64,000 nt of DNA from Opitutaceae bacterium (GTDB lineage Bacteria > Verrucomicrobiota > Verrucomicrobiia > Opitutales > Opitutaceae). The position numbers and the translations under genes were made by a program. The notes below the pieces were generated by a model that saw nothing but the letters and a program-made list of their open reading frames with translations, was not told the DNA's origin and ran no database searches. Location of the stretch: NCBI GenBank assembly GCA_018402455.1, contig JAGYIG010000006.1:62001-126000 (forward strand), in the 5' to 3' direction. Shown in pieces: positions 34,224 through 53,135 of this stretch; the first letter of the stretch is position 1, and every line of letters starts with the position of its first letter.

Positions 34224-35642
34224 TCATCCCTGCTCCAGCCAAGGCCCGGGAGCCCCGGATTCCAAACCGATCAGCGCCCCCCCAAACGCATGCCGGTTGA
34301 CGTCCCCACAGCGGAGCTGTCCCGCCGAGATCTGAATCCAGGCGCCACTACCGGCGGCGGCGGCATATAGGTCAGGGTATTTGGCCACGACCTGGGCGGC
34401 GATGGCCGCGGGCCACTCCTGCAAACCATTAAAATAGTGGTGGCCGTTGCGCTCCACCGAGGCATTGCCGAGGGCCGCTTGGACCGCGAGGTCCTGCGGC
34501 AAAGCGAGGGGCCCCACGTTGGAGAGGTCCTCCCCGCTCATACGCAGGACCGCCCCGCCCCGACGCGTCAGGAGACAGCGATTCGCCGCCCCGTGGATCA
34601 CGCCTTTGCAGTTCTTGTGGCTCACGCCCACGTAACCCAGATCCAAGGCCCGCCGCAGGTCGGCGGCGGTGGCCCCGGACTCATCGATCAACAGCGGCGG
34701 AGCATCGGCCCAGCCCTTGAGGGCCTCGCCTACCGCGTCCGCCAGGGCATGGTCACGGTGAATCGGTTGCTCGACAAAAATCAGGTGCGCCCAAAAATCC
34801 GCCAGGCCTGGTCGGGCCTGCGCCAACTCCCAGAACTCGCGGAAATCCGCCACCGAAGTAAAGGTTTCGTTGCCATCCAAACTGGCCGCATAATCGCCCC
34901 CGGTTTCTGCCGCGATCAACCGGGTCACCCGTTCGAGCCGATCGACCGCCGCACCCATCTCCCCCGCCACCTTGATTTTGAAATCACGCAGGCGGTAGCG
35001 GCGGATCACCTCGCGCAAGCTCACGGGGAGATTGTCCGGCGGGCGCTCTGCGGCGACGACTTCCGACTCTTCCAAAGGATCACCCAACCCAACGGTGTGC
35101 CGACTGGCCACGGTCGCCAACGACGAGACGGGCAGACCGTCCGCCGGCGCCATTCCCGTCAGCTCGGGATGCAGGTCCGCCAGGACAATGCCCAACCCAT
35201 TGCCGCGCAGGGCCGCACCCACCGTCGTTTGGTGCCGACGACAAAAGGCGTCGATGAGCGCCCGTTCGACAAAGGTCACGCCAAAGTGACTGAGCAACGC
35301 GGGTAGCCCGGCTGCCGTCGCCCATGCCGACTGGGCGGCCGCCACGTCCTGCATCAACGCGTGCACCGTCGGGGCGGTGCGCCCCACCGCTCCGCTCCCG
35401 GCCTGGGCGAGCACCGTTTTCATTTCCGCCACCTCATCGGCGAGTCCCCGCGTCGCGTCCTTGGTAAACCACTTGGGCGGCAAATGGTCCGCCGCTTGCC
35501 CGATCACCCGCTCGCCGGCCACCGTCGCCGTCACTTCCAGCCACACGTGGGGCACCTTCACCATGGTGGCGATGCCGTATTTAAAAGGGATCCGGGTGTG
35601 CAGTTCGCGTTCGAACCAACGAAGTCGATGGACGGTGATCAT
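34224..35642 (-). CDS. Mandelate racemase/muconate-lactonizing (enolase) superfamily protein
   Basis: 472 residues. The barrel shows the 'DFKIKVAGEMGAAV' KxK motif, which supplies the catalytic Lys pair of this superfamily. Metal ligands are visible as the Asp in 'ASLDGNETF', the Glu in 'FVEQPIHRDHAL' and the acidic pair in 'LLIDESGAT'. 'YVGVSHKNCKGVIHG' is another typical strand with a His/Lys. Length and the long N-terminal domain fit. Substrate class is unknown, likely a sugar acid or a related hydroxy acid. ATG 35642 was chosen because it begins the capping domain ('MITVHRLRWF'). It lies on the minus strand with an AraC-type gene 150 bases upstream. Confidence 0.82.
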   Translation of the reverse strand: MITVHRLRWFERELHTRIPFKYGIATMVKVPHVWLEVTATVAGERVIGQAADHLPPKWFTKDATRGLADEVAEMKTVLAQAGSGAVGRTAPTVHALMQDVAAAQSAWATAAGLPALLSHFGVTFVERALIDAFCRRHQTTVGAALRGNGLGIVLADLHPELTGMAPADGLPVSSLATVASRHTVGLGDPLEESEVVAAERPPDNLPVSLREVIRRYRLRDFKIKVAGEMGAAVDRLERVTRLIAAETGGDYAASLDGNETFTSVADFREFWELAQARPGLADFWAHLIFVEQPIHRDHALADAVGEALKGWADAPPLLIDESGATAADLRRALDLGYVGVSHKNCKGVIHGAANRCLLTRRGGAVLRMSGEDLSNVGPLALPQDLAVQAALGNASVERNGHHYFNGLQEWPAAIAAQVVAKYPDLYAAAAGSGAWIQISAGQLRCGDVNRHAFGGALIGLESGAPGPWLEQG

Positions 35643-35792: not shown

Positions 35793-36653
35793 TCATGAGG
35801 CTTGAGCATCGGCCTGCTCCATGGACCAAGCCCGCGGGGGCTTGCCGAAGCGTTGCCGAAAGGTCCGGTAAAAGTGCGAGACATCATGGTAGCCGCAGGC
35901 AAACATCACCCCGGTCACCGAGTGCTCCCCCGCGCGCAACAAGCGGGCCGCATGGGCCAGCCGCAACTCACTCAAAAATTCCCCAAAGGTGCGGTCGTTG
36001 GCCGCTCGAAACAAAGCGGTGAAGCGACGGCGCGACAATCCCGCGCGGGCCGACGCCCGATCCAGGTCCCACTCGTCGTAAAACGTCTCGGCGATTTCGT
36101 CCCGCACCGCTTCTACCCGATCCCGCGCCGATGCGCCGCCACTCTCCCGCGGCAGCCGCGAAAGCAACACGATGGTTTGGGCCGCGAGCGCCCGCGCCGC
36201 GCGCATCCCGCCAATCCGTTGGTGCTCCCACTCAAACATCGCCCGGCGCCACATGCTCTCCAAACGCTGCCGCGAGGGGCGCGATAGCCTCACCGGGCGG
36301 AACGCCCCCTTCACCAACGCCTGCCACAACCCCTCGATGTCGGCGTCGGCTTCCACCAATTCCTCGCGAAAACACAGGAGCAGCAAGGTGGAGGGCTCGA
36401 GATCGGTGATCTGATGCTCCCTCCCCGCCGAGACCACCACGACGGAACCGGCGCGCGCCGCAAAGGTCTGGGCCGGCTCGGATTCCCGATAAGCCACCTC
36501 TCCCGCGAGCACGTAGAGCACCTTGTGGTAGGGGTCCCGCCGCGGCGCCATGCGGAAATCACTGGCATGGGAACTCTCCACAAACAGCACGCCGTGGCTG
36601 GGCAACTTGATCGTGATCGGACTGGAAACCCGTTGCGTCATCGGAATCTGCAA
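35793..36653 (-). CDS. AraC family transcriptional regulator
   Basis: 286 residues. Residues 15-110 form a cupin-like ligand-binding half ('YHKVLYVLAGEVAYRES', 'AGSVVVVSAGREHQITD'). The C-terminal 100 residues are the double helix-turn-helix domain: 'WDLDRASARAGLSRRRFTALFRAA' and 'SVTGVMFACGYHDVSHFYRTFRQRFGKPP'. It is divergent from the methyltransferase operon, and only 88 bases separate the two starts. That makes it a good candidate for the regulator of that operon; the ligand would then be the operon's substrate or a product. This is inference from position only. Confidence 0.9.
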   Translation of the reverse strand: MQIPMTQRVSSPITIKLPSHGVLFVESSHASDFRMAPRRDPYHKVLYVLAGEVAYRESEPAQTFAARAGSVVVVSAGREHQITDLEPSTLLLLCFREELVEADADIEGLWQALVKGAFRPVRLSRPSRQRLESMWRRAMFEWEHQRIGGMRAARALAAQTIVLLSRLPRESGGASARDRVEAVRDEIAETFYDEWDLDRASARAGLSRRRFTALFRAANDRTFGEFLSELRLAHAARLLRAGEHSVTGVMFACGYHDVSHFYRTFRQRFGKPPRAWSMEQADAQAS

Positions 36654-36741: not shown

Positions 36742-37806
36742 ATGCCCATTCCTCCCCACCCCACTGCCACGCGTGCGGAAGTTGAATCCGTCCTCCGATG
36801 CGATCCCAACGCCCGCAAGATGCCCCTGTTCCTGCCGGCCATCTACGAACACAAGGCGGCCTTCATCGGCAGCACCCCCTCCGCCATTTCCCGCGACGCC
36901 GATCTCCTGACCAAGGCCCTGCTCGCCGAATTTGAAGCGATCGGTCCCGACGCCCTCGCTGTCGGCGTCGATGTTTATAATCTCGAAGCCGAAACCGTGG
37001 GCTGTGCGGTTTCTTTCTACGAGGGCGACGACACCTCGATTCCCGGGATCAAACCGGGCAACCACGTGATCAAGATCGGCGACGATCTGAGTAACGCCCC
37101 GCTCCCCAATCCGTTGAAGGACGGCCGCATGCCGATCAACATCACGGCCGCCGCCAATCTGCGCCGGGAATTGGGCGACGACTATTGGATCCGCGGGGCC
37201 ATCTCCGGCCCGTTCTCCCTCGCCATTTCGCTGGTGGGAGCCGAGGACCTGTTCCTCGCCTGTCTGGACGAGCCGGACTGGGTGGAGGACGTCCTCGCCT
37301 ACTCCGGGCGCATCATCAAGGAGTTTTCCAAGGCGTATATCGATGTCGGCGCCGAGCTCATCGTCTTCGACTCCCAAGCCTCTCCCGAGCTGCTCTCCCC
37401 CACCATGTATGAGGAGATCGTGCTGCCCGTGACGCAGGACCTCGTCAAGTGGTCGGCCGAGAACGGCGTCCGTGACTTGCCGCTCATCATCGGGGGCAAC
37501 ACCACCCCGATTGCGCAACTGCTCGCCGAATCCGGCGCCAACAATCTTCTCTGCGACTTCACCTCCGACTTCGACGAATGGGCCGACATTTGCCAGCAGC
37601 ATGGCCGCTCCTTCCGCCGCAACATCTCGCCGCGCCTCATCGAGACCGGGACGCCCGAGGAGGTCTACGAAACGGCGGCCCGCGAAATCGCCCGCGGCAA
37701 GGGCATTCCCGGCTTCATTCTCGGCACCGCCGTCGTTCCCTTCGGCTCGCCCACCCGCAACCTTCTCGCGATCAAACAAGCCTGCATCGACAGCGCCCAA
37801 GCTTAA
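36742..37806 (+). CDS. Uroporphyrinogen decarboxylase-family (MtaA/CmuA-like) corrinoid methyltransferase, zinc ligands absent
   Basis: 354 residues with the UroD-like barrel of methyltransferases such as MtaA, MtbA and CmuA. 'DALAVGVDVYNLEAETVGC' and 'RGAISGPFSLAISLVGAE' are family regions. In MtaA the zinc ligands are His-x-Cys in 'HICGN' and a Cys near 'GPGC'. Here the first site reads 'LIIGGNTTPIAQL' and the last reads 'FILGTAVVPFGSPTRN', so all three ligands are missing. It is the first gene of a ten-gene operon, followed by a corrinoid protein 18 bases later. It most likely moves a methyl group between an unknown substrate and the corrinoid. Direction and substrate cannot be told from sequence. 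Confidence 0.82.
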   Translation: MPIPPHPTATRAEVESVLRCDPNARKMPLFLPAIYEHKAAFIGSTPSAISRDADLLTKALLAEFEAIGPDALAVGVDVYNLEAETVGCAVSFYEGDDTSIPGIKPGNHVIKIGDDLSNAPLPNPLKDGRMPINITAAANLRRELGDDYWIRGAISGPFSLAISLVGAEDLFLACLDEPDWVEDVLAYSGRIIKEFSKAYIDVGAELIVFDSQASPELLSPTMYEEIVLPVTQDLVKWSAENGVRDLPLIIGGNTTPIAQLLAESGANNLLCDFTSDFDEWADICQQHGRSFRRNISPRLIETGTPEEVYETAAREIARGKGIPGFILGTAVVPFGSPTRNLLAIKQACIDSAQA

Positions 37807-37824
37807 CCCCCCCCTGAAAAACTC

Positions 37825-38466
37825 ATGCCCGATTACGCGCTCATCAATCAACTCCTCTACGAGGGCAAAGCCAAGAACGTCGCCGAACTGGTCCAGCAGG
37901 CCATCGACGAAGGCACCCCGGTGGACCAAGTCCTCAACGAGGGCCTCATTGCCGGCATGTCGGTCGTGGGTGAGGATTTTAAATACAACGTTCTCTACGT
38001 GCCGGAGGTGCTGGTGGCCGCCCGGGCCATGAAGGCCGGCATGGCCATCCTGAAGCCCCTGCTCGTCGCCGACGCGGAGAACAACCCCCCGCGAGGGACC
38101 GTCATCATGGGCACCGTGAAGGGCGACCTCCACGACATCGGCAAGAACCTCGTCTCCATGATGGCCGAGGGCGCCGGCTTTCAGATCATCGATATCGGGG
38201 TGGATCAACCCGTGGATGCCTTCAAGGACGCGTGCCGCGAGCACAAGGCGCACATCGTCGGCATGTCCGCCCTCCTCACCACGACCATGCCCTACATGAA
38301 GACGGTGATCGACGCCTTCCGCGCCGACCCCGAGTTCGCCAACGTCAAAATCGCCGTCGGCGGCGCCCCGGTGAACCGGATGTTTGCCGATGAGATTGAA
38401 GCCGATGGCTACGGCCCCGATGCGCCCTCGAGCGTCGAGCTCTTCCTCGAGATGGTCGCCGCCTGA
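37825..38466 (+). CDS. Corrinoid methyl-carrier protein (MtaC/MtbC-like, B12-binding)
   Basis: 213 residues, the usual size. An N-terminal helical bundle (about residues 5-85, 'VDQVLNEGLIAGMSVVGEDF') precedes the cobalamin-binding Rossmann-like domain. The cobalt-ligand motif DxHxxG is present as 'GDLHDIGKNLV' with H103. 'IIDIGVDQPVDAFKDAC' and 'GMSALLTTTMPYMK' and 'KIAVGGAPVN' are the expected following elements. It is the shuttle between the UroD-like enzyme upstream and the methyl-THF methyltransferase two genes downstream, both in the same operon. Confidence 0.93.
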   Translation: MPDYALINQLLYEGKAKNVAELVQQAIDEGTPVDQVLNEGLIAGMSVVGEDFKYNVLYVPEVLVAARAMKAGMAILKPLLVADAENNPPRGTVIMGTVKGDLHDIGKNLVSMMAEGAGFQIIDIGVDQPVDAFKDACREHKAHIVGMSALLTTTMPYMKTVIDAFRADPEFANVKIAVGGAPVNRMFADEIEADGYGPDAPSSVELFLEMVAA

Positions 38467-38496
38467 GCCTCCGCCCCGACCGCCACTGCCCACGCT

Positions 38497-40086
38497 ATGA
38501 CGCTGCCCGAAAAATTTGCGGACACCCAGCGTTTCCTGGTGGGCGTGGAGCTGGTCTCGACCCGGGGGACGGTGGTGGAAACGCGGGCCGCCAAGTCGGT
38601 GGACTTCGCCGAGGCGCTCTCCGCCAACGACGACATTGATTGGGTCTCCATCACCGACAACGCCGGGGGCAACCCGCAGCTGGCACCGGCCGCGCTCGGG
38701 GATCTGATTCGGGCCGCCGGGCGCGAGGTGGTGGTGCACCTCTCGTGCAAGGATTTCAATCGCAACGGGCTGGAGTCCGAGGCCTGGCACCTGTCCACCC
38801 TCGGCCTGCACAATCTCCTGGCGCTGTCCGGCGATTACTCCGGCAAAGGCGTTCACGGCGGCGCCAAACCCGTCTTCGACATCGATGCGGTCGGCCTGCT
38901 CACCCTGCTCGCCCAGATGAACAGCGGCATGGACGTCACCCGGCCCGGCGCGAAGCAACTCACCCGGCTCGGCGCCACCCAATTCTACTCCGGCTGCGTG
39001 GTGACCAACTTCAAACGCCACGAAAACGAGGTCATCCCGCAACTGCTCAAGCTGGAAAAGAAACTCGAGTGCGGCGCCCAGTGGATCGTCAACCAGATCG
39101 GCTACGACTCGCGCAAGATCCACGAGCTCATCCTGTGGCTGCGCCAGCGCGGCTGGGGCCACGTGCCCCTGGTGGGCAACGTTTACGTGCTCAACCCGGG
39201 CGTGGCGAAACTCTTTCGGTCGCAGAAAATTCCCGGCGTGGTCGTCTCGGACGAACTGGCGGAGATCTGCGCGGCGCACGCCGATTCACCCGACCGCGGC
39301 AAGGCGTTCTTCCTCGAACTCGCCGCCAAGCAACTCGCGATCTACCGCGGCCTGGGCTACCGCGGCGGTTACTTGGGCGGGGTGCATCGCATCGCCGACG
39401 TCGAACGGGTGCTGGAAATCGAACGCGGCTTCGGACCGGATGATTGGCGGACTTTCGCCCGCGAGATTCGCTACAGCCGCCCCGGGGAGTTCTTTTGCTA
39501 CGCCGAGGATGCCACCACCGGCCTGGCCGACGCCGCCGTCCCGAACCCCAGCCTGACCGCCCCCGGCGAGCGCACCCGCAACGTGACCTACTCCTACCGC
39601 TTTTCCAAATTCGTGCACGGCCTCATGTTCGAGCCGGATCGCGGCCTCTGGAACGTCGGCAAAAAACTCACCGCGCAAGCCGCGGATCCCCGGCAGGGTC
39701 CCGGCTGGATGCGATTGATGGAGCATGCCGGCAAGGCCGCCATGTTTGGCTGCAAGGACTGCGGCGACTGCTCGCTGCCCGACATGGAATTCCTCTGCCC
39801 GGAATCCGCCTGCGCCAAAAACCAGCGCAATGGCCCCTGCGGCGGCACCCGCGACGGGCTCTGCGAAGTGGATGACTTTGAGTGCGTCTGGTCCCGCGCC
39901 TACGACCGGGCCAAATTCGCGGGCCGCGCCGAGCAGTTGCTCGATCATGCCCCGGTCCTGCAGGACCAACACCTGCGGGGCACCTCCAGCTGGGCCAACA
40001 CCTGGCACGGCCGCGATCACCTGGCCCACCCCATCACCGTCCCCACCGCGCAGACCCCCATCCCGGTCACCGACCGTGAAACCTGA
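38497..40086 (+). CDS. metF: Methylenetetrahydrofolate reductase fused to a MetV-like cysteine-rich domain
   Basis: 529 residues. Residues 1-300 or so are a MetF barrel ('YLGGVHRIADV' near its end, 'ALSGDYSGKGVHGG', 'GATQFYSGCVVTNFKRHENEV'). The rest contains a C-terminal cluster with eight Cys: 'GCKDCGDCSLPDMEFLC', 'CAKNQRNGPCGG' and 'GLCEVDDFEC'. That is the MTHFR C-terminal (MetV-like) pattern, which in acetogens is a separate or fused iron-sulfur or zinc subunit. It interconverts methyl- and methylene-tetrahydrofolate. In an operon with a corrinoid methyltransferase set it most likely oxidises methyl-THF. Gaps to neighbours are 30 and 38 bases. Confidence 0.88.
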   Translation: MTLPEKFADTQRFLVGVELVSTRGTVVETRAAKSVDFAEALSANDDIDWVSITDNAGGNPQLAPAALGDLIRAAGREVVVHLSCKDFNRNGLESEAWHLSTLGLHNLLALSGDYSGKGVHGGAKPVFDIDAVGLLTLLAQMNSGMDVTRPGAKQLTRLGATQFYSGCVVTNFKRHENEVIPQLLKLEKKLECGAQWIVNQIGYDSRKIHELILWLRQRGWGHVPLVGNVYVLNPGVAKLFRSQKIPGVVVSDELAEICAAHADSPDRGKAFFLELAAKQLAIYRGLGYRGGYLGGVHRIADVERVLEIERGFGPDDWRTFAREIRYSRPGEFFCYAEDATTGLADAAVPNPSLTAPGERTRNVTYSYRFSKFVHGLMFEPDRGLWNVGKKLTAQAADPRQGPGWMRLMEHAGKAAMFGCKDCGDCSLPDMEFLCPESACAKNQRNGPCGGTRDGLCEVDDFECVWSRAYDRAKFAGRAEQLLDHAPVLQDQHLRGTSSWANTWHGRDHLAHPITVPTAQTPIPVTDRET

Positions 40087-40124
40087 TCCTGCGCCCCCGC
40101 CCCCCGCGCCAACGCATCCATTTT

Positions 40125-41090
40125 ATGAATACTGAGACTTCCCTCCCCGCCGCGAGCCCTGCCGTGGCTCCGCCCAAAATCATCGGCGAACTGATCAACA
40201 ACGCCTACGCCCGCGCCCGTCGCGCCTGGGAAGCCCGGGATGTGTCCGGCTTCCAGCATCTGGCCAAGCTCCAGGCCGACGCCGGAGCGGAGTTGGTGAA
40301 CCTCAACGTCGACGGCACGCAAAAGGTCTCCGTGCGCGTGGAGGAGATGCTCGAGTTTCTGCCCATTGTCATTCCCGCCATTCAAGCGGTCACCGATGTC
40401 TCCCTGAGCTTCGACAATCCCAACATCGACTACCACAAGGTGGCCCTAGGGGTCTTCGATCGCAGCAAGAGCCGCGGCAAACCGCTGTTCAACTCCCTGG
40501 CCGCCTCGCGCCACGATCTCGACGGCATGATTGAACTGATCCGGGAGCATGACATGCGTTGCATCGTGATGGCCTCGGAGTGTTTCCGTCCCGACGGCAC
40601 CACGGGCCAGAGCCTCGATCCCCAGGACAGCTACGAAACCGTGGTTCGCTTCGTGGACCTGTTGGTCTCGAAAGCCGATCGCACCGTCGACGACATCATC
40701 GTGGACCCGGGGCTTGCGCCCGTCGGCGCCGACACCTACGGCCTCGTCAACATCGGCCTCGATACGATGCGTCTGTGTGCCGCCGACCCTCAGCTCAAAG
40801 GCCTGCACTACTCCGTGGGGCTCTCCAATTTTGCGTGGGGCACGCCCAAGGCCATCAAGCCCCTTTTGGAACGCGCCTACCTGACCATCGCCGGGCGTCT
40901 CGGCCTCGACTACGCCCTCGCCAATGTCGAAGCCAACGCCCTCCCTCTGGAAGCGGATCATCCGCTGATCGATGCCCTCGAAGCCGCCCTCGCCGGCGGC
41001 CGCACTCAAGCCGGCGAGACCGCCGAAGACGCGGGTTTTCGTCAGGCGGAAATGGTGATGGACCTCTGCGCCGAGTATATCGACGAATGA
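40125..41090 (+). CDS. Methyltetrahydrofolate:corrinoid methyltransferase (DHPS-like, MeTr/MtvA type)
   Basis: 321 residues with the dihydropteroate-synthase-like barrel used by AcsE, MtvA, MtgA and the MetH folate domain. Visible elements are 'KIIGELINNAYARARRAWEARD', 'LQADAGAELVNLNVDG', 'DVSLSFDNPN', 'DIIVDPGLAPVGADTYGLVN' and 'HYSVGLSNFAWGTPK'. The Asp and Asn residues of these strands bind the pterin. It would carry the methyl from the corrinoid protein to tetrahydrofolate. The stop overlaps the following amidohydrolase start as ATGA. Confidence 0.88.
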   Translation: MNTETSLPAASPAVAPPKIIGELINNAYARARRAWEARDVSGFQHLAKLQADAGAELVNLNVDGTQKVSVRVEEMLEFLPIVIPAIQAVTDVSLSFDNPNIDYHKVALGVFDRSKSRGKPLFNSLAASRHDLDGMIELIREHDMRCIVMASECFRPDGTTGQSLDPQDSYETVVRFVDLLVSKADRTVDDIIVDPGLAPVGADTYGLVNIGLDTMRLCAADPQLKGLHYSVGLSNFAWGTPKAIKPLLERAYLTIAGRLGLDYALANVEANALPLEADHPLIDALEAALAGGRTQAGETAEDAGFRQAEMVMDLCAEYIDE

Positions 41091-42385
41091 GTTCCCCCGC
41101 GCCTTCACTCGCCGACGAGCTCCGTCGGTTGCACGCGAGCCCCCACCCCATCTGGCTGCAGGTGGGGAACGTTTTTCGGGGCCTCGACACCTCGGTGCTG
41201 CCGCAGGGCCATGCCGTTTATACGGCTGAGGGCATCGACTACGTGGGCGCCGAGCCCCCCCGGTCAGAGCTCCTTCGGCCAGGGCAAACCGCGCCCGATC
41301 TGCGGTTGCCGGAGCACACCCTCCTGCCCGGCCTGACCGACGCCCATACCCACCTTTTCCTCGCCGGTGGCGAGACCGATCCGGCCGCCCGTTCCCTCCA
41401 CCTCAACCTCCCCGCGCCGGAGCAATTGACCCAGGCGCACACCCGCCTGACCCGTTTGGTCGCCCTCGGCGTCACGGCGGTGCGAGAGGCCGGCGACAAG
41501 GCCAACATCGGCCTCGACCTGCAGTCCCGCTACCGTTCGGCCGCGCGCGGCATCATGCCCTATGTCGATGCGCCCGGCGCGGCCATCAACCATCAGAAGC
41601 GCTACGGCTCGTTCATGGCCCGCCCGATGGAGGACTCGGCACCCGGCGGCTGCCGTGGCGACCGCGTCGCCGCCGGAGCGCATCGCATCAAGCTCCTGGC
41701 CACCGGCATCATCAATTTTGAGAAGGGAGCGGTGACCGCCAAGCCGCAGATGCCAGTGGACGAGTTGCGTGAATTTGTCGCCGCGGCCGAGGACCACGGT
41801 CAGCAGACCATGGTTCACTGCTCGGGGCACGATGGGGTCGACAACTGCATTGCCGCCAAAGTGGACTCCGTCGAACACGGCTACTTCATCGACGATGACC
41901 AGCTGGCGCGGATGCGTGACCTCGACATGGTCTGGGTGCCCACCTTCGCACCCGTGCAGTTTCAATTGGATCAGCCGCACCACATCGGCTGGAGCGAGGT
42001 GGTCTGCGAGCACCTGCGCCGGATCATCGACGCCCACTCCCGCCGCCTGCAACGGGCGACCACCATCGGCGTTCGGGTCGTCGCCGGCAGCGATGCCGGA
42101 TCGCATGGCGTCGCCCACGGCTGGGGGTTCCTTCGCGAATTGGAGCTGATGCAGGCAGCGGGGTTGACGGCCGCCCAAGTGCTGCACACGGCCACGGGCG
42201 CCGGGTTTCAGCGGATGGGCTACGCCGACACCTTTGGGGTCCTCGCGCCCGCAGCCAAGGCCCGCTTTATCCTCACCGACCGGGACGTGCTCTCCTCGGT
42301 CAGCCACCTTCGGGCGGACAAAGTGGTGGTGTTTGATCACCACGTGCTCGATCAAAACGATCAGGAATCCGTTCCCGGTCTCTAG
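41087..42385 (+). CDS. Amidohydrolase family protein
   Basis: 432 residues. The metal-binding HxH motif is in 'GLTDAHTHLFLA'. Further ligands are the His in 'QTMVHCSGHDGVDN', the His in 'DSVEHGYFID' and the Asp in 'VVAGSDAGSHG'. A C-terminal beta segment follows, as in imidazolonepropionase-like hydrolases. The start overlaps the MeTr stop by four bases, so the gene is coupled to the methyl-transfer set. It might release the methylated substrate or process the demethylated product; the nitrogen compound is not known. Confidence 0.85.
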   Translation: MSSPAPSLADELRRLHASPHPIWLQVGNVFRGLDTSVLPQGHAVYTAEGIDYVGAEPPRSELLRPGQTAPDLRLPEHTLLPGLTDAHTHLFLAGGETDPAARSLHLNLPAPEQLTQAHTRLTRLVALGVTAVREAGDKANIGLDLQSRYRSAARGIMPYVDAPGAAINHQKRYGSFMARPMEDSAPGGCRGDRVAAGAHRIKLLATGIINFEKGAVTAKPQMPVDELREFVAAAEDHGQQTMVHCSGHDGVDNCIAAKVDSVEHGYFIDDDQLARMRDLDMVWVPTFAPVQFQLDQPHHIGWSEVVCEHLRRIIDAHSRRLQRATTIGVRVVAGSDAGSHGVAHGWGFLRELELMQAAGLTAAQVLHTATGAGFQRMGYADTFGVLAPAAKARFILTDRDVLSSVSHLRADKVVVFDHHVLDQNDQESVPGL

Positions 42386-42391
42386 TCAGCC

Positions 42392-44035
42392 ATGTCTAAA
42401 AAAGTTACGATCAATCAATGCGTGGGCGAATTTCCCGTCGGCGCCTCACTTTTTGACATCGGGGAATCCCTCGGTCTCGCCGTGCCTTCCTCCTGCCGGG
42501 GACAGGGGAAGTGCCGCGAATGCCTGATGGAGATCACCGTCGGCATGGAGAGTCTCAGCCCCAAGGTCGCGGAAGAGAGCCACCTGCAGGAAAACTTCCG
42601 GCTCTCGTGTTGCACCCGATTGACCGAAGAGCCCGGGGAGGTCCAGGCCCACACCATGCGCCGCGCCTCCATCAACATCGAGGAAGGCGCCATGAACCTG
42701 CCGCCCGAGGCGACCCCCGCATCCTATGATCCGGCGGTGACCCGGGACGGGGAACGCATTCTGATCGAAGGCACGGCAGTCGCCACCGGCACCGGCCCCC
42801 TGCTGGGCCTGGCCATCGATATCGGCACCACCACGGTGGTCGTGCGCGCGGTGGATTTGGAGTCGGGCACCATCATCGCGGCGACCTCGTTGGAGAACCC
42901 GCAGCGCTTCGGCGGCACCGATGTGATGTCGCGTATTCAATACGACACCGACCACCCCGGGCGGCTCCTGCAACGCACGCTGCTGGGCTATCTGACCCGG
43001 GCCATCAACCAGCTACCGATCGACCCCAACGACATCTACGAAATCGTGGTCGCGGGCAATCCCACCATGCGGGATCTGTTTCTCGGACTGGACGTCACCA
43101 CCATCGGGCAGCGCCCCTACCAGTCGCTCACCGAAAAGGCGTGGAAGGCCGGCGAGAGCACGACCACGGCCGTGGTGATGCCCGCCCGCAAACTGCGTCT
43201 GCCCAGCAATCCCGCCGCCCGCATCTACGCCATGCCGGTGGTGAGTGGCCACGTCGGCGGCGACGCCGCCGCCTGCCTGCTGGCCGTCGCCGGCGACCGC
43301 AGCGAAGAGATCATTGCGATCATGGACATCGGCACCAACACGGAGGTGTTCATCGGGCAACGCGACCGCCTGCTTGCCGCATCGTGTCCCGCCGGTCCGG
43401 CCTTTGAGGGCCGCGCGATCAGCCGGGGGATGCCCGGTCTCGCCGGCGCCATCGAAAAGGTGCACATCAGGGAGGATGATACCGTGCAATGCGACGTCAT
43501 CGGGCAAGGCCCGCCCGAAGGCATCTGCGGATCGGGCCTCATTTCCCTGCTGGCGGAACTCAAGCGCACCGAGCACATGAATGCCTTTGGCCGTTTTGAG
43601 GATGGTGAATCGTCGTTCGCCGTCGCCCCCGATCACGGCATCACGTTCCTCGAAAGCGACATCAACGAACTCGCTCAAGCCAAAGGCGCGAATGTGGCCG
43701 GCCTGCGCATCGTCGCCCAAGCCTACGGCATCAGCCTCGCCGACGTGGATAAATTCTACCTGGCGGGGGGCTTTGGTCGCCACCTCGACATCGCAGCCTC
43801 CCAGGAGATCGGACTGATTCCCGACCTGCCCCGGGAAAAGATCATCCAGATCGGCAACGCGGCCATCGAAGGCGCCACCCTCGCCCTGCTGTCCCTCACC
43901 CGGCGACGGGAGTTGGAGGAGCGCATCAAAACCATCGAACACGTGGAATTGGAAACCAACCCCGACTTCTTCGACCACTTTGTCGAAGGCTGCCAATTCC
44001 AGCGTTTTGGGGTCGAGGAGGGAGAGCTCGCCTGA
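42392..44035 (+). CDS. RACo-type reductive activator of corrinoid protein (2Fe-2S ferredoxin plus ASKHA domain)
   Basis: 547 residues. The N-terminal ferredoxin has 'SCRGQGKCREC' (C35, C41, C44) and a further Cys pair at C73/C74. A linker follows, then the ASKHA ATPase-like domain: 'GLAIDIGTTTVVVRAVDL', 'GHVGGDAAACLLAV', 'IMDIGTNTEVFIG' and 'FYLAGGFGRHLDIAASQEIGLIP'. This is the RACo architecture, which uses ATP to return an inactive Co(II) corrinoid to Co(I). It starts six bases after the amidohydrolase; its stop overlaps the next gene by one base (TGATG). Confidence 0.92.
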   Translation: MSKKVTINQCVGEFPVGASLFDIGESLGLAVPSSCRGQGKCRECLMEITVGMESLSPKVAEESHLQENFRLSCCTRLTEEPGEVQAHTMRRASINIEEGAMNLPPEATPASYDPAVTRDGERILIEGTAVATGTGPLLGLAIDIGTTTVVVRAVDLESGTIIAATSLENPQRFGGTDVMSRIQYDTDHPGRLLQRTLLGYLTRAINQLPIDPNDIYEIVVAGNPTMRDLFLGLDVTTIGQRPYQSLTEKAWKAGESTTTAVVMPARKLRLPSNPAARIYAMPVVSGHVGGDAAACLLAVAGDRSEEIIAIMDIGTNTEVFIGQRDRLLAASCPAGPAFEGRAISRGMPGLAGAIEKVHIREDDTVQCDVIGQGPPEGICGSGLISLLAELKRTEHMNAFGRFEDGESSFAVAPDHGITFLESDINELAQAKGANVAGLRIVAQAYGISLADVDKFYLAGGFGRHLDIAASQEIGLIPDLPREKIIQIGNAAIEGATLALLSLTRRRELEERIKTIEHVELETNPDFFDHFVEGCQFQRFGVEEGELA

Positions 44036-44586
44036 TGGTGCTGCATGAGGAGATTCACCCGTCGATCGACGTCGATGAGGCCACGTTCAAGCGCTTCTTG
44101 CGTTTCCCGCCGACCCGGGAGTTTGAAGGCGCCATGGCCGAGGCGGCGCAATGGGCCCGGGAGTGGTTCATGGCCCACGGCAAGCCTTGGATTGTCGCCC
44201 TCCCCGCCGATGAAGCGATCCGCGCCTTGACGGCCAACCGGTGGCCGGCCACGACCCCGTTGGGCGTGATCATAACCAGTGCCGGGCCCGAGGCCGAAGC
44301 CCACGCGGGGGTCTGTTTTGAGGCGGACGAGCCCGACCGCTACTACTTTTTGGAATGCTACGCCTCGGCCGTGGTCGATCAGCTGCTCACCCGCACGCGG
44401 AACGCGCTGGGCGCCACCCGCCACTACTCTCCCGGTTATCCGGAATGGGGCATCGAAGCCAATCCCCCCTTGCTTGCCGCGATCAATGGTCTGGTTTCCC
44501 TGCCCGGTCCCCTGCGAACCTTGGACTCTGGCATGCTGGTCCCTAAAAAATCCCAAATCGCCGTCTTCGCCCTCCCGCCCAAATGA
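44035..44586 (+). CDS. MetH activation-domain-like protein (stand-alone)
   Basis: 183 residues. The C-terminal half matches stand-alone relatives of the MetH activation domain: 'HYSPGYPEWGIEA' and 'SGMLVPKKSQIAVFAL'. The MetH activation domain binds AdoMet and helps return cob(II)alamin to the active state. The N-terminal part ('TREFEGAMAEAAQWAREWF') is helical. It follows the RACo gene with a one-base overlap, so the operon carries two kinds of corrinoid reactivation proteins. It could instead be an accessory for a split MetH; no MetH is in the window. Confidence 0.75.
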   Translation: MVLHEEIHPSIDVDEATFKRFLRFPPTREFEGAMAEAAQWAREWFMAHGKPWIVALPADEAIRALTANRWPATTPLGVIITSAGPEAEAHAGVCFEADEPDRYYFLECYASAVVDQLLTRTRNALGATRHYSPGYPEWGIEANPPLLAAINGLVSLPGPLRTLDSGMLVPKKSQIAVFALPPK

Positions 44587-45107
44587 CCGAATCAAACCAA
44601 GCGCCCACCTCAAACGATGCCGCCGGGGTCGTTGACTCCGGGAACCCCAGCGCGGCGGCTCCCGCCCCCGCCTACAGCTTCACCCCCCGGGTCCTCGAGC
44701 GGTGGGCACGCAGCAACCTGCAACTCACGCCGCGCGCCGATGGCGGACATGATGCCGTGTTTCGGTTCCACGGCAGCACCTGCGGGAACATCGAATTCGA
44801 TTTGATCTATCACGCCACTGTCGGCTCGGCCGCCGAAGGGCATCCCCTGCGCACACTCCATTGTGAACCGGCCCCGCATGGCGATGGCCACACGCGCATG
44901 TGCTGCTGGCGCGAGAACGCGGAAAAGGTCAGAGACTGGATGCAGCGCGAAACCCCTCTGCTCGGGCAGCCCCTCGCCGATGCCCTGTCATGGAACCCCC
45001 AAAAGTCCGCCTCCGGCTGCCTGTGCCATGTCGATGGCCGCCGGCACAAGTGGAACGCCGTATTCCAAACCCTCCATTTCGCTCTCGCTCAAAATTCCCC
45101 CTCCTAA
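44583..45107 (+). CDS. Hypothetical protein with six cysteines, in the corrinoid operon
   Basis: 174 residues, start overlapping the previous stop (ATGA). The first 30 residues are low-complexity, rich in Ala and Pro. The rest is soluble with Cys at 67 ('GSTCGNIEF'), 94, 107 and 108 ('HTRMCCWRE'), 146 and 148 ('SGCLCHVDGRRHKW'). The pairs and the nearby His residues suggest a metal or iron-sulfur site. I do not recognise a family. Its place makes a role in the methyl-transfer system likely, perhaps as an electron carrier to the corrinoid or as a scaffold. Confidence 0.7.
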   Translation: MTESNQAPTSNDAAGVVDSGNPSAAAPAPAYSFTPRVLERWARSNLQLTPRADGGHDAVFRFHGSTCGNIEFDLIYHATVGSAAEGHPLRTLHCEPAPHGDGHTRMCCWRENAEKVRDWMQRETPLLGQPLADALSWNPQKSASGCLCHVDGRRHKWNAVFQTLHFALAQNSPS

Positions 45108-45119
45108 CCCTCTATCGCT

Positions 45120-45467
45120 ATGAAAACTGAACTCGCTCCCCTCAATCCCGATCTCGAAGCCGCCCTGCGGCCCGAAAAAAACGACCGTTCCGGAGTGGGC
45201 GTGCACTACGCCGATGCCTACCTCAAGCCCCTCAAAAAGAAGATCGAGCTGCCCGATGGCACCAAGTTTTCCGCCAAACGCCGGGGGCTTAAAATCACCC
45301 TGACCTGGGGCACCAACAGTGGCGAGGGCCTGCTGCGCCGCCTCGAGAACGGGCCCGACCCGAAGAACATGCTGCAAGGCGCGCTCGATGAAGCCGCCGA
45401 GGCCCTCGGGGCCAAACTGATCGCGGAAGACGGCAAACTTTGGCTCGAATCCGCCCCGACCGCCTGA
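45120..45467 (+). CDS. Hypothetical protein, corrinoid operon
   Basis: 115 residues, no Cys, no signal or membrane segment. It has basic stretches ('LKPLKKKIELPDGTKFSAKRRG') and a later acidic, helical part ('LQGALDEAAEALGAKLIAEDG'). I cannot place it in a family. It starts 12 bases after the six-cysteine gene and the next gene starts 26 bases after it. Constant close spacing supports membership of the operon. Confidence 0.65.
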   Translation: MKTELAPLNPDLEAALRPEKNDRSGVGVHYADAYLKPLKKKIELPDGTKFSAKRRGLKITLTWGTNSGEGLLRRLENGPDPKNMLQGALDEAAEALGAKLIAEDGKLWLESAPTA

Positions 45468-45493
45468 CCCACTGCCGGTAACCCCATCGTCTC

Positions 45494-46339
45494 ATGTCCA
45501 CCCCCACCCTTGTTCTTCAAGCCAATCTCTGGAGCCTCACCAACCAGCAAAATGCGGACGGCACTGATTGGAGCACCCTGCAAAAAATCGAGGCCATCCA
45601 GGCCGCGGGCTTCGACGCCTGCACCACCGGCATCGGCGCGCCCGGGCTGAAGGCGGCCCTCACCACCACCGGCCTGCGCTACGGCGGCTTCTTCGATGCG
45701 GGCAAGGTGGAGCACTTCGCGCCGCGGATCGCCGCCGCGCTCGAACTCGATCGTGGCCCGATCAATTGTCAGCTTGCCGACCACGACACCCCCGTCGAGG
45801 AGGCCATCGAGCTCACCGCCGAACTCATGGCGGAAGCCGACCGCCAAGGCGCCGAGGTCCACCTCGAGGTGCATCGCGACACCTGCACCGAAACCCCGGA
45901 GAAAACCAGCGCCATCGCCGCCGGGGTCAAAGCCAGGACCGGAAAGTATCCGCGTATCAACTACGATTTCTCCCACCCCGCCTCGGTCAAACACCTCGGC
46001 CCCCAGAATTACGTGGAACGGCTGTTCGACAACATCCCCCTGTTCCAAGCCTCGACCCTCTGGCACATGCGGCCCTTCAACGGCCACCACTGCCAGGTGC
46101 CGGTCACCGACGGCACCGCCACCCACTCGCCGGAATACCTCGAGCTGCGGCCCTTCATCCGCACCGCCTTCGATCGGTGGCTCGCCGGTCCCCGCCCCGG
46201 CAATACCTTCTGGGTCTGCCCGGAGGTCGGCCCCAAAATCGGCTACGGCTTGAGCTGCTTTCCCGACAGCTGGCATGAAGCCCAGGAGCTCGGCAAAGAC
46301 CTCCGTGTCCTCTGGGCCGAAGCCTTGGCCGAAGCCTAA
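45494..46339 (+). CDS. Sugar phosphate isomerase/epimerase-like TIM-barrel protein
   Basis: 281 residues, related to the xylose-isomerase-like TIM-barrel superfamily. Visible pieces are 'EAIQAAGFDACTTGIG' and 'GAEVHLEVHRDTCTETP' with the metal-ligand Glu, and 'YDFSHPASVKHLG' with Asp and His, and 'STLWHMRPFNGHHCQ'. Members bind a divalent metal and isomerise or epimerise sugars, inositols or hydroxy-acids. It closes the close-packed operon. A role on the carbon skeleton left after methyl removal is plausible but inferred from position. Confidence 0.75.
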   Translation: MSTPTLVLQANLWSLTNQQNADGTDWSTLQKIEAIQAAGFDACTTGIGAPGLKAALTTTGLRYGGFFDAGKVEHFAPRIAAALELDRGPINCQLADHDTPVEEAIELTAELMAEADRQGAEVHLEVHRDTCTETPEKTSAIAAGVKARTGKYPRINYDFSHPASVKHLGPQNYVERLFDNIPLFQASTLWHMRPFNGHHCQVPVTDGTATHSPEYLELRPFIRTAFDRWLAGPRPGNTFWVCPEVGPKIGYGLSCFPDSWHEAQELGKDLRVLWAEALAEA

Positions 46340-46520: not shown

Positions 46521-48824
46521 ATGTCTGCCTCTCAGCACCCCACCGCCGATCCTGAGCCGCCGCGCAAGCTGCGGCGGCTGACTCAGTCCGCTCCGCCCAA
46601 CCAGGCCGTCGGGGCGACCGCCGTGCTCAATTCGATGCGCCACATTCAGGCGCAAGCCGGTCTCGCCCGGGGCACCAAGGCCCTGCTTCGCGCCAACCAA
46701 AAAGGGGGGTTCGATTGCCCCAGTTGTGCCTGGCCCGACCCCGATGACGATCGCTCCAGTTTCGAGTTCTGCGAAAACGGGGCCAAGGCGATCGCCACCG
46801 AAGCCACCCGCAAACGGGCGACCCCTGAGCTCTTCGCCCAGCACACCCTTGCCGACCTCGCCGCGTGGTCCGATTTCGAGCTCAACGACGCGGGCCGGCT
46901 GACCGAACCCATGGTGCTCGACGCCGGGGCCACCCACTACCGACCGATCGCCTGGGACGATGCCTTCGCTTTGATCGCCGAGGAGCTCAACGCCACCGAC
47001 CCCAACGAGGCCATCTTTTACACCTCCGGCCGCGCCAGCAACGAGGCCGCGTTTCTCTACCAACTCTTCGTCCGGCAATACGGCACCAACAACCTGCCCG
47101 ATTGCTCCAACATGTGCCACGAGTCCAGCGGGGCGGCCCTCAAGATGACCATCGGTATCGGCAAGGGCACGGTGACGCTCGACGACCTTGAGCACACCGA
47201 CTGCGTGATGGTGATCGGCCAAAATCCCGGGACCAATCACCCCCGGATGCTCACCTCGTTGGAGAAAACCGTCAAAAACGGCGGGCGGATTGTTTCCGTC
47301 AATCCCCTGCTGGAGACCGGCGTCAAAGCCTTTGCCCACCCGCAAAAACTGTCGGGGCTGTTGGGCGTCGCCACCCCGTTGCAATCACTGCACGTGCCCG
47401 TGCGCCTCAACGGCGACCTGCCCTTCGTGAAGGGCCTGCTGAAGTGCGTGCTCGAGGCGGAGGCCGCCCAACCCGGCACGGTGGTTGACCGGAAATTCAT
47501 CGCCGAGCACACCGAAGGCTACGAGCAATTGATCGCCGCTTTGGCCGAAGTTTCGTGGCCGGATCTCTGCCAGCAGTCCGGCCTCACCGTTGCGCAAATT
47601 CGCGAAGCTGCGGCGGTTTTCATTTCCGCCCCGGAGTGCATCACCTGCTGGGCGATGGGACTCACCCAGCACCACAATGCGGTCGAAACGATTCAGGAGC
47701 TGGTCAACCTGCACCTCCTCACCGGCAAAATCGGCCGGCCCCGCAGCGGTCTGTGCCCCGTGCGTGGTCACAGCAACGTGCAGGGCGACCGCACCATGGG
47801 CATCTGGGAACGCCCGCCGCCGCCGTTCCTCGACCAACTCGATGCGGAGTTTGGCTTCAAGTCTCCCCGGGCGTTTGGCTACGACACGGTCGAGGCGATT
47901 ACCGCCATGCACGAGGGCAAGGCCCGCGTGTTTTTCGCCCTGGGCGGCAATTTCCTTTCGGCGTCGCCAGACACCCACTACACGGCGGCGGCTCTGCGCC
48001 GCTGCGCGTTGACCGTGCAGGTTTCGACCAAGCTCAATCGCAGTCACCTCATCACCGGTCAACGCGCGCTCATCCTGCCCTGCCTCGGCCGGACCGAAAC
48101 CGACCTGCGCAACGGCCAACCGCAATTCGTCACCGTGGAGAATTCCATGGGCGTGGTCCACAGCTCCGAGGGCAAACTTGCGCCCGCCTCGCCCCACCTG
48201 CTGAGCGAGGTCGCCATCATCTGTTGCCTCGCCGCGGCCACGCTGGGCGAGCGCAGCACAGTGCCCTGGGCGGCCCTGGCCCAGAACTACGACCTAATCC
48301 GTGAACGGATTGAACGGGTGGTGCCGGGTTTCGATAAATTCAACCTCCGCATCCACCAGCCGGGTGGTTTCTATTTGCCAAACGGGGTCAAGGAGCGGCG
48401 CTGGGATACCAAGACCGGCAAGGCCCGGTTCACCGTCAATCCCCTCAATCCGCTCAAACTCGAACCCGGCCAACTGCTGCTGCAGACCTTCCGCAGCCAC
48501 GATCAGTTCAACACCACGATCTACGGCCACAACGACCGCTACCGCGGCATCACCAACGAACGCCGGGTGATTTTCCTCAACCGCGAGGATATGCGCGAAC
48601 GCGGCGTCGAGCCGCAGCAACCGATCGACATCACGAGTCACTTCCAAGGCGAAACCCGCACGGCGGAACTTTTTTTGGCCATTCCCTACGATACCCCGAA
48701 AGGCTGCGCCGCCGCCTACTACCCGGAGGCCAACGTTCTCGTGCCCATCGGGGCCAAAGCCAACATCAGCCAAACCCCCACGTCCAAATCGATCGTGATC
48801 ACGATCACCCCATCCACCGGGTGA
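46521..48824 (+). CDS. FdhF/YdeP-family molybdopterin oxidoreductase
   Basis: 767 residues, similar to E. coli YdeP. An N-terminal Cys set C66, C69 and C84 ('FDCPSCAWPD' and 'FEFCENG') may hold an iron-sulfur cluster. 'YTSGRASNEAAFLYQLF' and 'LPDCSNMCHESSGAAL' are the molybdopterin-dinucleotide-binding parts, and 'GIWERPPPPFLDQL' follows. YdeP-family enzymes are formate-dehydrogenase-like but often of unproven activity. It follows the methyl-transfer operon by 181 bases, with its own repeat-bearing upstream region, and so may have separate transcription. If it oxidises formate, it would complete an oxidative one-carbon route; this is inferred. Confidence 0.85.
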   Translation: MSASQHPTADPEPPRKLRRLTQSAPPNQAVGATAVLNSMRHIQAQAGLARGTKALLRANQKGGFDCPSCAWPDPDDDRSSFEFCENGAKAIATEATRKRATPELFAQHTLADLAAWSDFELNDAGRLTEPMVLDAGATHYRPIAWDDAFALIAEELNATDPNEAIFYTSGRASNEAAFLYQLFVRQYGTNNLPDCSNMCHESSGAALKMTIGIGKGTVTLDDLEHTDCVMVIGQNPGTNHPRMLTSLEKTVKNGGRIVSVNPLLETGVKAFAHPQKLSGLLGVATPLQSLHVPVRLNGDLPFVKGLLKCVLEAEAAQPGTVVDRKFIAEHTEGYEQLIAALAEVSWPDLCQQSGLTVAQIREAAAVFISAPECITCWAMGLTQHHNAVETIQELVNLHLLTGKIGRPRSGLCPVRGHSNVQGDRTMGIWERPPPPFLDQLDAEFGFKSPRAFGYDTVEAITAMHEGKARVFFALGGNFLSASPDTHYTAAALRRCALTVQVSTKLNRSHLITGQRALILPCLGRTETDLRNGQPQFVTVENSMGVVHSSEGKLAPASPHLLSEVAIICCLAAATLGERSTVPWAALAQNYDLIRERIERVVPGFDKFNLRIHQPGGFYLPNGVKERRWDTKTGKARFTVNPLNPLKLEPGQLLLQTFRSHDQFNTTIYGHNDRYRGITNERRVIFLNREDMRERGVEPQQPIDITSHFQGETRTAELFLAIPYDTPKGCAAAYYPEANVLVPIGAKANISQTPTSKSIVITITPSTG

Positions 48825-49324: not shown

Positions 49325-50404
49325 TTACTTCGCGGCGTCGGCCATCGCCTGGGCGCGGAGGGATATCTCGGCGGACTTGAAAATGTGCGCCTGGGTCATC
49401 GCCTTCTCGGTGCCGTGGATCAGATCGAGGATCATCTCTCCGAAGAACGGGAATCCCACTTTATCCGCGCACTCGATGAGCTGGCTGCCGTCGTCATTGA
49501 CGAGGTAAAGGCGATCGCGCGGATCCCCCGGCTGCACCGGATCCCAATACTTGCGGATCTCCACGGTCCCGTTGGTCCCCACCACAAACACGCGGCCGTC
49601 ACCCCACACCGGCGAGTTGTCGTGGGTGAACCAATCCACCCGAAAATAACCCGACGCGCCGCTGCTCATCGTATAGGACACCTCGCCGAAGTCCTCGAAC
49701 TCGGGGTGGTCGGCATTGGCGAAGTTGGCCACGCGGGCGAAGTTGATTTTCGCATCGGTCGAACCGGTGAAGGTCAACAACTGGTCGCACTGGTGGGAGC
49801 CGATGTCGGTCAGGATGCCGCCGTATTGCTGCTTGTCCCAAAACCAGTCCGGCCGACTGGCCTTGGACAGGCGATGCGGCGCCAGATTGATCACCTGCAC
49901 CACGTCGCCAATGGCGCCGCCTTGAATGAGTTCGGTGGCCTTCACCGCCGACTCCACGTGCAGCCGCTCGCTGAAGTAAACCAGGTAGCGCCGTCCGGTC
50001 TCCGCCACCTTGGCCTTCACGGCAGCCAACTGGGCCAGGGTGGTGAACGGGCACTTGTCGGTGAAATAGTCTTTGCCGGCATCCATCACTTGGATACCAA
50101 GATCCGCCCGGCGGTTAGGAATCGCGGCGGCCGCGACCAACTTGATTTCCGGATCCGCCAGGACCGCGTCCCACGACGCGGCCACCGGGGTGCCGGGGTG
50201 GCTGGCCAAAAAGGTGGCCACCTTGTCCGGATCGGGGTCGAAGACGCACTTGAGCTCCGCGCCGGCCTCCAACAGTCCGTTCACCTGTCCATAAATATGG
50301 CCGTGATCCAAAAATGCGGCGGCGAACTTATACTCGCCGGGCCCGACAACTTTTTCGGCGTGAGCGGCTTGGGGGGCGTAATCGAATCCGGTTTTTGCGG
50401 CCAT
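49325..50404 (-). CDS. Gfo/Idh/MocA family oxidoreductase
   Basis: 359 residues, without a signal peptide. It opens with 'YKFAAAFLDHGHIYGQVNGL' instead of the common GxGxxG, so the nucleotide loop is unusual and may bind differently. 'AAAIPNRRADLGIQVMDAG' and 'DYFTDKCPFTTLAQL' (a variant of the EKP motif, with Lys) follow, then 'GGILTDIGSHQCDQLLTF' with the conserved His. It sits next to an AraC regulator and rhaB-rhaA, so a role in rhamnose or a related sugar is possible. Confidence 0.8.
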   Translation of the reverse strand: MAAKTGFDYAPQAAHAEKVVGPGEYKFAAAFLDHGHIYGQVNGLLEAGAELKCVFDPDPDKVATFLASHPGTPVAASWDAVLADPEIKLVAAAAIPNRRADLGIQVMDAGKDYFTDKCPFTTLAQLAAVKAKVAETGRRYLVYFSERLHVESAVKATELIQGGAIGDVVQVINLAPHRLSKASRPDWFWDKQQYGGILTDIGSHQCDQLLTFTGSTDAKINFARVANFANADHPEFEDFGEVSYTMSSGASGYFRVDWFTHDNSPVWGDGRVFVVGTNGTVEIRKYWDPVQPGDPRDRLYLVNDDGSQLIECADKVGFPFFGEMILDLIHGTEKAMTQAHIFKSAEISLRAQAMADAAK

Positions 50405-50494
50405 GGTTCCCTAGGACAAGCACGCCCGGGCCGGGAGGACGAGACGCTTTTGCAGAAACCGTTGCCCCCCACCGGCGACCTTGGTTCCGATCAG

Positions 50495-51421: not shown

Positions 51422-51459
51422 TTCAATTCAAGGCCGTCTTGCGGTATAGTGTATCCGCA
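51422..51459 (+). promoter_or_regulatory. Putative rhaB promoter with overlapping imperfect inverted repeat
   Basis: TTCAAT at 51422-51427 and TATAGT at 51445-51450 are separated by 17 bases. The -10 lies inside an imperfect inverted repeat TGCGG...CCGCA at 51440-51459, a candidate operator for the divergent AraC regulator. rhaB starts at 51521. Recognised by consensus only. Confidence 0.4.
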
Positions 51460-51520
51460 TTTAGTTATGTCCCCCCGGCCGGGCCGTGATCCGGCCACTT
51501 TCAGTATTCCTCCGCCTGCC

Positions 51521-52957: not shown

Positions 52958-53135
52958 GCGCGCGAAGATCCAAGTCACAAGTGGACCCCTCCTCCAGTCC
53001 GGGCTCAGCGAGCCCGGCGACAACCCATCCGATGAAACACCCCTTTCTCCAGCTGTAGCCGAGGTCGCCGACCTCGGTTCGCCTGCCCTCCCCCTGCAAT
53101 CCCTATTCGCCAACCCCAAATCGTAAATTTTCCCT
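52958..53135. repeat. Intergenic gap between rhaB and rhaA with two hairpins
   Basis: Hairpins at 52999-53017 (arms CCGGGCTC and GAGCCCGG around AGC) and 53059-53077 (arms CCGAGGTC and GACCTCGG around GCC). Both are of the TC-xGC-GA loop type. This is a gap with hairpins between genes of the same direction. Confidence 0.8.

Follow-up and report, generated by a model that had tools for sequence, protein, structure and literature searches.

The stretch of DNA analysed here (the window) comprises 64,000 nucleotides from the metagenome-assembled genome of an Opitutaceae bacterium (assembly GCA_018402455.1, contig JAGYIG010000006.1, positions 62,001–126,000 of the forward strand). Ten open reading frames, g1–g10, lie on its plus strand at 36742–46339, and gene families and gene order indicate that the operon is probably a cobalamin-dependent O-demethylation system. 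g1 (36742–37806) is a UroD-superfamily protein (PF01208, 116 bits) and the proposed substrate:corrinoid methyltransferase (methyltransferase I, MTI). g2 (37825–38466) is a corrinoid protein (PF02310 and PF02607) whose DxHxxG motif reads DLHDIG at residue 101. g3 (38497–40086) is a MetF-MetV fusion of methylenetetrahydrofolate reductase (MTHFR, PF02219) and DUF5981 (PF12225), with a proposed role in oxidation of methyl-tetrahydrofolate (methyl-THF). g4 (40125–41090) contains a Pterin_bind domain (PF00809) and is the proposed methyl-corrinoid:THF methyltransferase (methyltransferase II, MTII); its PRK07535 score is 88.8 bits, under the cut-off of 259. g5 (41087–42385) is an amidohydrolase (Amidohydro_1, PF01979) with prolidase- and imidazolonepropionase-like relatives in the PDB. 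g6 (42392–44035) is a RACo-type reductive corrinoid activator with an N-terminal 2Fe-2S domain (PF14574, PF17651, PF00111). g7 (44035–44586) resembles the MetH reactivation domain, g8 (44583–45107) is a cysteine-rich domain, and g9 (45120–45467) is a 115-aa protein. g10 (45494–46339) had been called a TIM-barrel isomerase/epimerase in a sequence-only reading of this DNA. No Pfam or NCBIfam model matched g7, g8, g9, or g10 at E 0.001, and g10 also had no convincing PDB match. The positions and strand given for the ten frames in that reading were confirmed, as were its gaps (18, 30, 38, −4, 6, −1, −4, 12, and 26 bases from g1 to g10), and its UroD, corrinoid, MTHFR, pterin-binding, amidohydrolase, and RACo assignments were borne out by Pfam and NCBIfam. 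A divergent AraC-type regulator (PF12833) lies upstream of g1 at 35793–36653 on the minus strand.

Orthologues of g1, defined as proteins at least 58% identical to the window copy, were found in 48 of 252 genomes of the family, one copy being split in pieces. Outside the window, 37 g1 loci were read; two (L002 and L005) end at a contig edge inside the operon, leaving 35 that were classified. The complete block is present at sixteen (type A), g1-MetFV-LigM at nine (type B), and g1-MetFV-g5-g7 at one (L039). A Rieske gene occurs at three (type C), and at six none of g2–g9 was seen beside g1 (type D); L156 (type B) and L065 (type D) sit near contig ends. In type A, g1–g9 are collinear on a single strand at all 16 loci, from at least seven genera, except that L061 lacks g5; as the types were defined by content after inspection, this count speaks for order and not for frequency. 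Gene order kept across genera at 31–90% protein identity is hardly due to chance, and the check on order in relatives that had been set beforehand was thus passed. The AraC homologue is present at 15 of the 16 loci and also at g1-LigM and g1-Rieske loci. g10 occurs at two (L001 and L003), both in the window's genus. The proposed ten-gene operon is therefore corrected to a conserved unit of nine genes, g1–g9. Homologues of g1 were found in ten genomes of other families, and at the seven places examined no operon genes stood beside the UroD gene (L171 is a stretch of only 3.8 kb). These proteins are 31–34% identical to g1 and, lacking such neighbours, look like other paralogues. A phylum search for g8, scored on at most 14 candidates per genome, was positive in at least 4 of 235 genomes among the matches listed; one of these (G307) lies outside the family and has RACo and g7 adjoining g8.

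The predicted g1 structure (pLDDT 94) has MtbA as its top Foldseek match, with a template modelling (TM) score of 0.84. The zinc ligands of MtbA and MtaA, which we take to be HxC...C, are absent: in a profile alignment the H, C, and C columns of MtbA are I, G, and T/A in the g1 family. A zinc-dependent coenzyme M methyltransferase of the MtaA/MtbA kind was rejected on this ground. Membership of the MtaA/CmuA family (TIGR01463) was also rejected, since g1 scores 107.6 bits and does not reach the cut-off of 235.4. A rapid tree was built from 54 UroD proteins; it has long branches, of which the programme warns. In it seven HemE proteins form their own clade. The RQAGRY motif is absent from g1, and the true HemE of the genome is encoded elsewhere (G000:C47, 372 bits). 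g1 is thus separate from HemE, and the check set beforehand, that it should not group with true haem decarboxylases, was passed. Its nearest relatives in the tree are UroD-corrinoid fusions of 592–598 residues with a CmuA-like make-up (loci L046–L050; 37–38% identical; SH-aLRT branch support 99). A RACo-like gene is present at all five fusion loci, and an MTHFR gene (c20) and a g4-family gene at four; the fifth locus, L046, ends at a contig edge. The fusion suggests that the two units act together in these relatives. According to the available text of PMC13222342, the methoxylated-aromatic demethylases MtvB, OdmB, VdmB, and MtoB are placed in the UroD superfamily, and zinc is absent in CdmB and the Moorella O-demethylase and present in veratrole and vanillate O-demethylases. 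This comparison makes g1 most plausibly a substrate methyltransferase without zinc, akin to the acetogen O-demethylases. The earlier view that, without MttB or MtaB, no classical donor enzyme is evident is not supported, since those four demethylases are themselves UroD-superfamily proteins. One g1-bearing genome, G169 (L092 and L072), has 25 UroD-family matches at E 1e-8 or better in 3.6 Mb, nine of which cluster in 17 kb surrounding a single corrinoid protein and activator.

The corrinoid genes are replaced at related loci. At 14 loci an FAH-family gene and the AraC gene flank one side, and the same downstream neighbour (cluster d3) follows in 12. Between these flanks lie g1-MetFV-g5-g7 (L039), g1-MetFV-LigM with or without g7 (nine loci), or MetFV-LigM-PurU (four loci). 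AraC, MetFV, LigM, and PurU stand together without g1 at L143, L144, L149, and L151. At the nine type B loci, a LigM/DesA-type protein follows MetF-MetV and the corrinoid gene is absent. PurU follows LigM at eight of nine LigM loci without g1 versus none of nine with g1, where the L156 stretch ends just past LigM. The LigM-like copy at L073 matches solved LigM at E 6e-136, and the residues R, Y, and W, presumably catalytic in LigM, are kept in 18/18 LigM-like copies. LigM was found in 31 of the 252 genomes; ten of these also carry g1, adjoining in nine and on another contig in G157. The nine type B genomes contain no close g2 or RACo orthologue. Besides MetH-like matches, they encode a corrinoid protein 45–50% identical within about 3 kb of an activator 32–36% identical. 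A Rieske gene lies directly after g1 at L067, 1.5 kb after g1 at L074, and after g1-g3-g4-g5 at L042; the L067 and L042 copies contain the VanA_C Pfam domain. In the g1 tree, LigM rows sit among type A and type D rows with modest support; a small number of events may account for the LigM loci that carry g1. We infer the direction of displacement. The Rieske-type locus L042 (10907–18843) also has a second corrinoid protein, an activator, and a UroD homologue a few kb away.

A second UroD protein, here called X, marks a sister operon at ten loci, one per genome, the window genome included. A g2 homologue directly follows X at nine of these, so that X takes the position that g1 has in the window; the window genome's own X (L152:8709–10877, G000:C35) has no g2 homologue directly after it. 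Loci L076–L079 and L082 also hold g4–g9, and three of them g3. L153 lacks g4 and g5, and L154 has g6–g9 on the opposite strand. g7 and g8 are a single protein of 407–424 aa at L076–L079 and L082, and apparently at L153 (406 aa). A UxuA-like mannonate dehydratase gene, with a clear PF03786 match that misses the NCBIfam cut-off, lies near X at eight of ten loci; the other two begin near contig ends. A homocysteine methyltransferase-like gene is likewise near X at eight of ten. The nine genomes with X before g2 comprise three with g1 alone, two with g1 and a Rieske gene (those of L067 and L074), two that also have type A, one with the fusion form, and one (G133) with no g1 match. A lone g1 may use the corrinoid protein of the X operon in trans. 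At L152, L076–L079, L081, L153, and L154, the UxuA-like gene is often accompanied by a short-chain dehydrogenase/reductase gene and at some loci by a LacI regulator. The neighbourhood hints at 4-O-methyl-glucuronate as the donor for X.

We infer the reaction, its direction, and the donor class from these loci. LigM/DesA- and VanA-type enzymes in the place of the corrinoid module point to a methoxy donor, so the donor is not as wholly obscure as the sequence-only reading had left it. Characterised VanA-type enzymes remove O-methyl groups from aromatics. So do LigM and DesA (PMC12585457; available part of PMC5547118), and in Sphingobium SYK-6 an MTHFR oxidises the methyl-THF made by LigM (PMC12585457). 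Vanillate, syringate, or another aromatic acid of that type is the probable donor. As MetF-MetV is kept in the LigM loci and the substitutes remove O-methyl groups where characterised, the simplest account is that the methyl group enters THF and is oxidised. g1 would move the methoxy methyl to Co(I) on g2, and g4 would hand it from g2 to tetrahydrofolate. The g3 fusion would then oxidise methyl-THF to methylene-THF, which general folate enzymes including PurU would carry on to formate. The FdhF/YdeP-family molybdo-oxidoreductase encoded 181 bases past g10 (46521–48824, plus strand; TIGR01701, 917.8 bits against a cut-off of 582) may oxidise formate in the window's genus; it is found at 2 of 16 type A loci, in that genus only. 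RACo (g6), with g7 and probably g8, would return oxidised cobalt to Co(I), and AraC would sense the substrate. Corrinoid methyl transfer feeding tetrahydrofolate, as first proposed, agrees with the gene families and conserved order, and MetF-MetV, LigM, and PurU standing together in relatives favour the catabolic direction that was also proposed. The suggestion that the epimerase and amidohydrolase betray an amide or sugar part in the donor is not sustained. The former is seen only in the window's genus; the latter mostly goes with the corrinoid module and is also in the sister operon, beside a different UroD methyltransferase.

The operon shares its four components with the acetogen and archaeal Mtv, Odm, Vdm, and Mto systems, whose MTI is a UroD-superfamily protein in the portion of PMC13222342 available. 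g1 has the UroD fold of that class (PF01208; MtbA match). A cognate corrinoid protein, THF-type MTII, and RACo-type activator, recognised by family and motif, lie with MTI in one conserved operon. The MtoD activator has an N-terminal 2Fe-2S domain, as in g6, in the excerpt of PMC8630106. In contrast to these systems, the Opitutaceae operon adds the MetF-MetV fusion, amidohydrolase, g7, g8, and g9, apparently for methyl oxidation. The Cmu chloromethane system shares a methyltransferase/corrinoid protein and THF methyltransferase, and its region contains metF2, purU, and hutI (partial text of PMC3621897). Here, however, g1 and g2 are separate proteins, the TIGR01463 cut-off is failed, and the donor appears to differ. 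The hutI genes of cmu regions, in the same partial text, parallel the imidazolonepropionase-like g5. Type 1 mlp clusters (Kountz and Balskus preprint, PMC10418091, available part) share UroD-superfamily proteins, a corrinoid protein, and an activator. As described there, they have at least two Mlps (Mlp2 and Mlp3) and no THF methyltransferase, whereas the window operon encodes MTII and a single UroD protein; assignment to this cluster type was rejected. The LigM/DesA route with reverse MTHFR in Sphingobium SYK-6 would give the same net result, methoxy donor plus THF to methyl-THF to methylene-THF. LigM is not known to use cobalamin. LigM/DesA genes occupy the place of the corrinoid genes in related loci, and no LigM match was found in the window genome at E 1e-60.

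Several observations weigh against cobalamin-dependent demethylation of a methoxylated aromatic by g1. The UroD tree contains no reference OdmB or MtvB sequence. The LigM-like protein scores under curated cut-offs (DesA, 566 of 800 bits; LigM, 519 of 580 bits), and the Rieske protein matches no vanillate equivalog. Exclusion between LigM and g9 is not significant over the 252 genomes (g9 in 2/31 LigM genomes versus 45/221 others, p 0.083); among the 48 g1 genomes, g9 is in 1/10 LigM genomes versus 31/38 others (p 6e-5, relatedness ignored). The ring-cleavage families PF00775 and PF02900 were each found in 3 of 18 genomes, neither in the window genome, and other ring-cleavage families were not searched. 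Given their scarcity, demethylation might be the only change that an aromatic donor undergoes; acetogens likewise leave the ring. Finally, g1 has no adjoining operon corrinoid gene at 19 of 35 loci, where it would need a corrinoid protein encoded elsewhere or have another job. Possible partners are corrinoid paralogues 45–52% identical, in LigM and some other genomes, and X-operon orthologues in others.

The same machinery might act on an O-methylated sugar or sugar acid, such as methyl-rhamnose, methyl-fucose, or 4-O-methyl-glucuronate, for which the scarcity of the two ring-cleavage families leaves room. We consider this unlikely but worth keeping in view. An L-rhamnose isomerase gene and a rhamnulokinase-like gene (under its cut-off) lie at 51–54 kb of the window, a rhamnulokinase-like homologue is near LigM locus L149, a fucose-isomerase-like gene adjoins L058, and X is near the UxuA-like gene at eight of ten sister loci. 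However, the sugar-gene neighbours of g1 vary by locus, and the LigM/DesA- and VanA-type substitutes act on aromatics where characterised. That g1 catalyses a different reaction of this substrate, such as decarboxylation, and hence stays beside LigM and Rieske enzymes is distinctly improbable, although where no corrinoid genes adjoin it g1 is still 62–73% identical to the window copy. The type A operon would then have no other MTI candidate, four loci that share the MetF-MetV and AraC genes and carry LigM have no g1, and both the UroD-corrinoid fusion in relatives and the equivalent position of X in the sister operon count against this reading as well.

A system of the Cmu kind, for chloromethane or another halomethane, would suit the CmuA-like two-domain make-up of the fusions in relatives, the metF2, purU, and hutI genes of cmu regions (PMC3621897, in part), and the imidazolonepropionase-like character, among others, of g5. 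It is very improbable given displacement by LigM- and VanA-type enzymes and a TIGR01463 score of less than half the cut-off. Methyl-transfer chemistry can be reversible, and a homocysteine methyltransferase-like gene is near X at eight of ten sister loci. A biosynthetic or salvage direction, in which methyl-THF methylates the corrinoid and then another acceptor, is nevertheless scarcely credible beside the grouping of MetF-MetV, LigM, and PurU in relatives and the inducible-type AraC regulator. O-demethylation of a methoxy compound is retained as the favoured reading.

The accessory proteins are less familiar than the core. The MetH-activation-like call for g7 was confirmed by a profile match to 1j6r, a methionine-synthase reactivation domain of known structure (E 1.7e-6). 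g8 had been described by six cysteines; all six are present in the window protein, but only five are invariant in 19 aligned sequences. Its AlphaFold2 (AF2) model has a pLDDT of 89. No PDB match was found by sequence, and the best match by fold (E 0.2) is unrelated, so an IscU/NifU-like scaffold, guessed from the cysteine pattern, was rejected. Fusion of g8 to the MetH-like g7 in the sister operon suggests that it takes part in corrinoid reactivation. g9, aligned over 21 sequences, has no convincing PDB match and is present in 47 of the 252 genomes. g5 is in 41 of these 47 and in 52 of 252 overall, with 11 genomes having g5 without g9. L039 and L042 also retain g5, where neither g2 nor RACo adjoins it; its link to the corrinoid module is therefore not absolute. 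A role for g5 as a substitute formyl-THF hydrolase was dropped because PurU is present in 228/252 genomes, the window genome included. Conservation marks g8 and g9 as partners of the corrinoid module that have yet to be characterised. A tentative proposal, which we hold to be possible but doubtful as a whole, is that one methoxy-demethylation operon changed chemistry in place (corrinoid with RACo; g1 with LigM; LigM alone; Rieske enzymes as a side branch) and that g7 and g8, which are one protein in the sister operon, form together with g9 a new set for corrinoid reactivation. The five-cysteine domain would pass electrons to the MetH-like domain beside or with RACo, perhaps as an adaptation to oxygen.

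No paper on corrinoid O-demethylation in Opitutaceae or Verrucomicrobiota was among the matches listed in the openly licensed literature. With this operon, B12-dependent O-demethylation, a chemistry known chiefly from anaerobes, would extend to a Verrucomicrobiota family whose genomes also encode oxygen- and folate-dependent demethylases, apparently for a similar task. Related loci with three different chemistries provide a natural comparison, and the donor class is testable. The core system is of a kind already known, here with accessory proteins without an assigned role (g5, g8, and g9) and an unusual displacement series. Because lignin and algal glycans contain a large pool of methyl in their methoxy groups, the identity of the donor matters for carbon turnover.

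Other genes lie near the operon. A minus-strand gene at 34224–35642 encodes a protein with enolase-superfamily-like motifs by eye and no match in Pfam, NCBIfam, or PDB; it is near the operon at 4 of 16 type A loci. These loci belong to two genera, and the gene precedes the operon in one genus and follows it in the other. The L-rhamnose isomerase and rhamnulokinase-like genes occupy 51449–54407, and an AraC regulator and a Gfo/Idh gene lie with them at 49325–51391.

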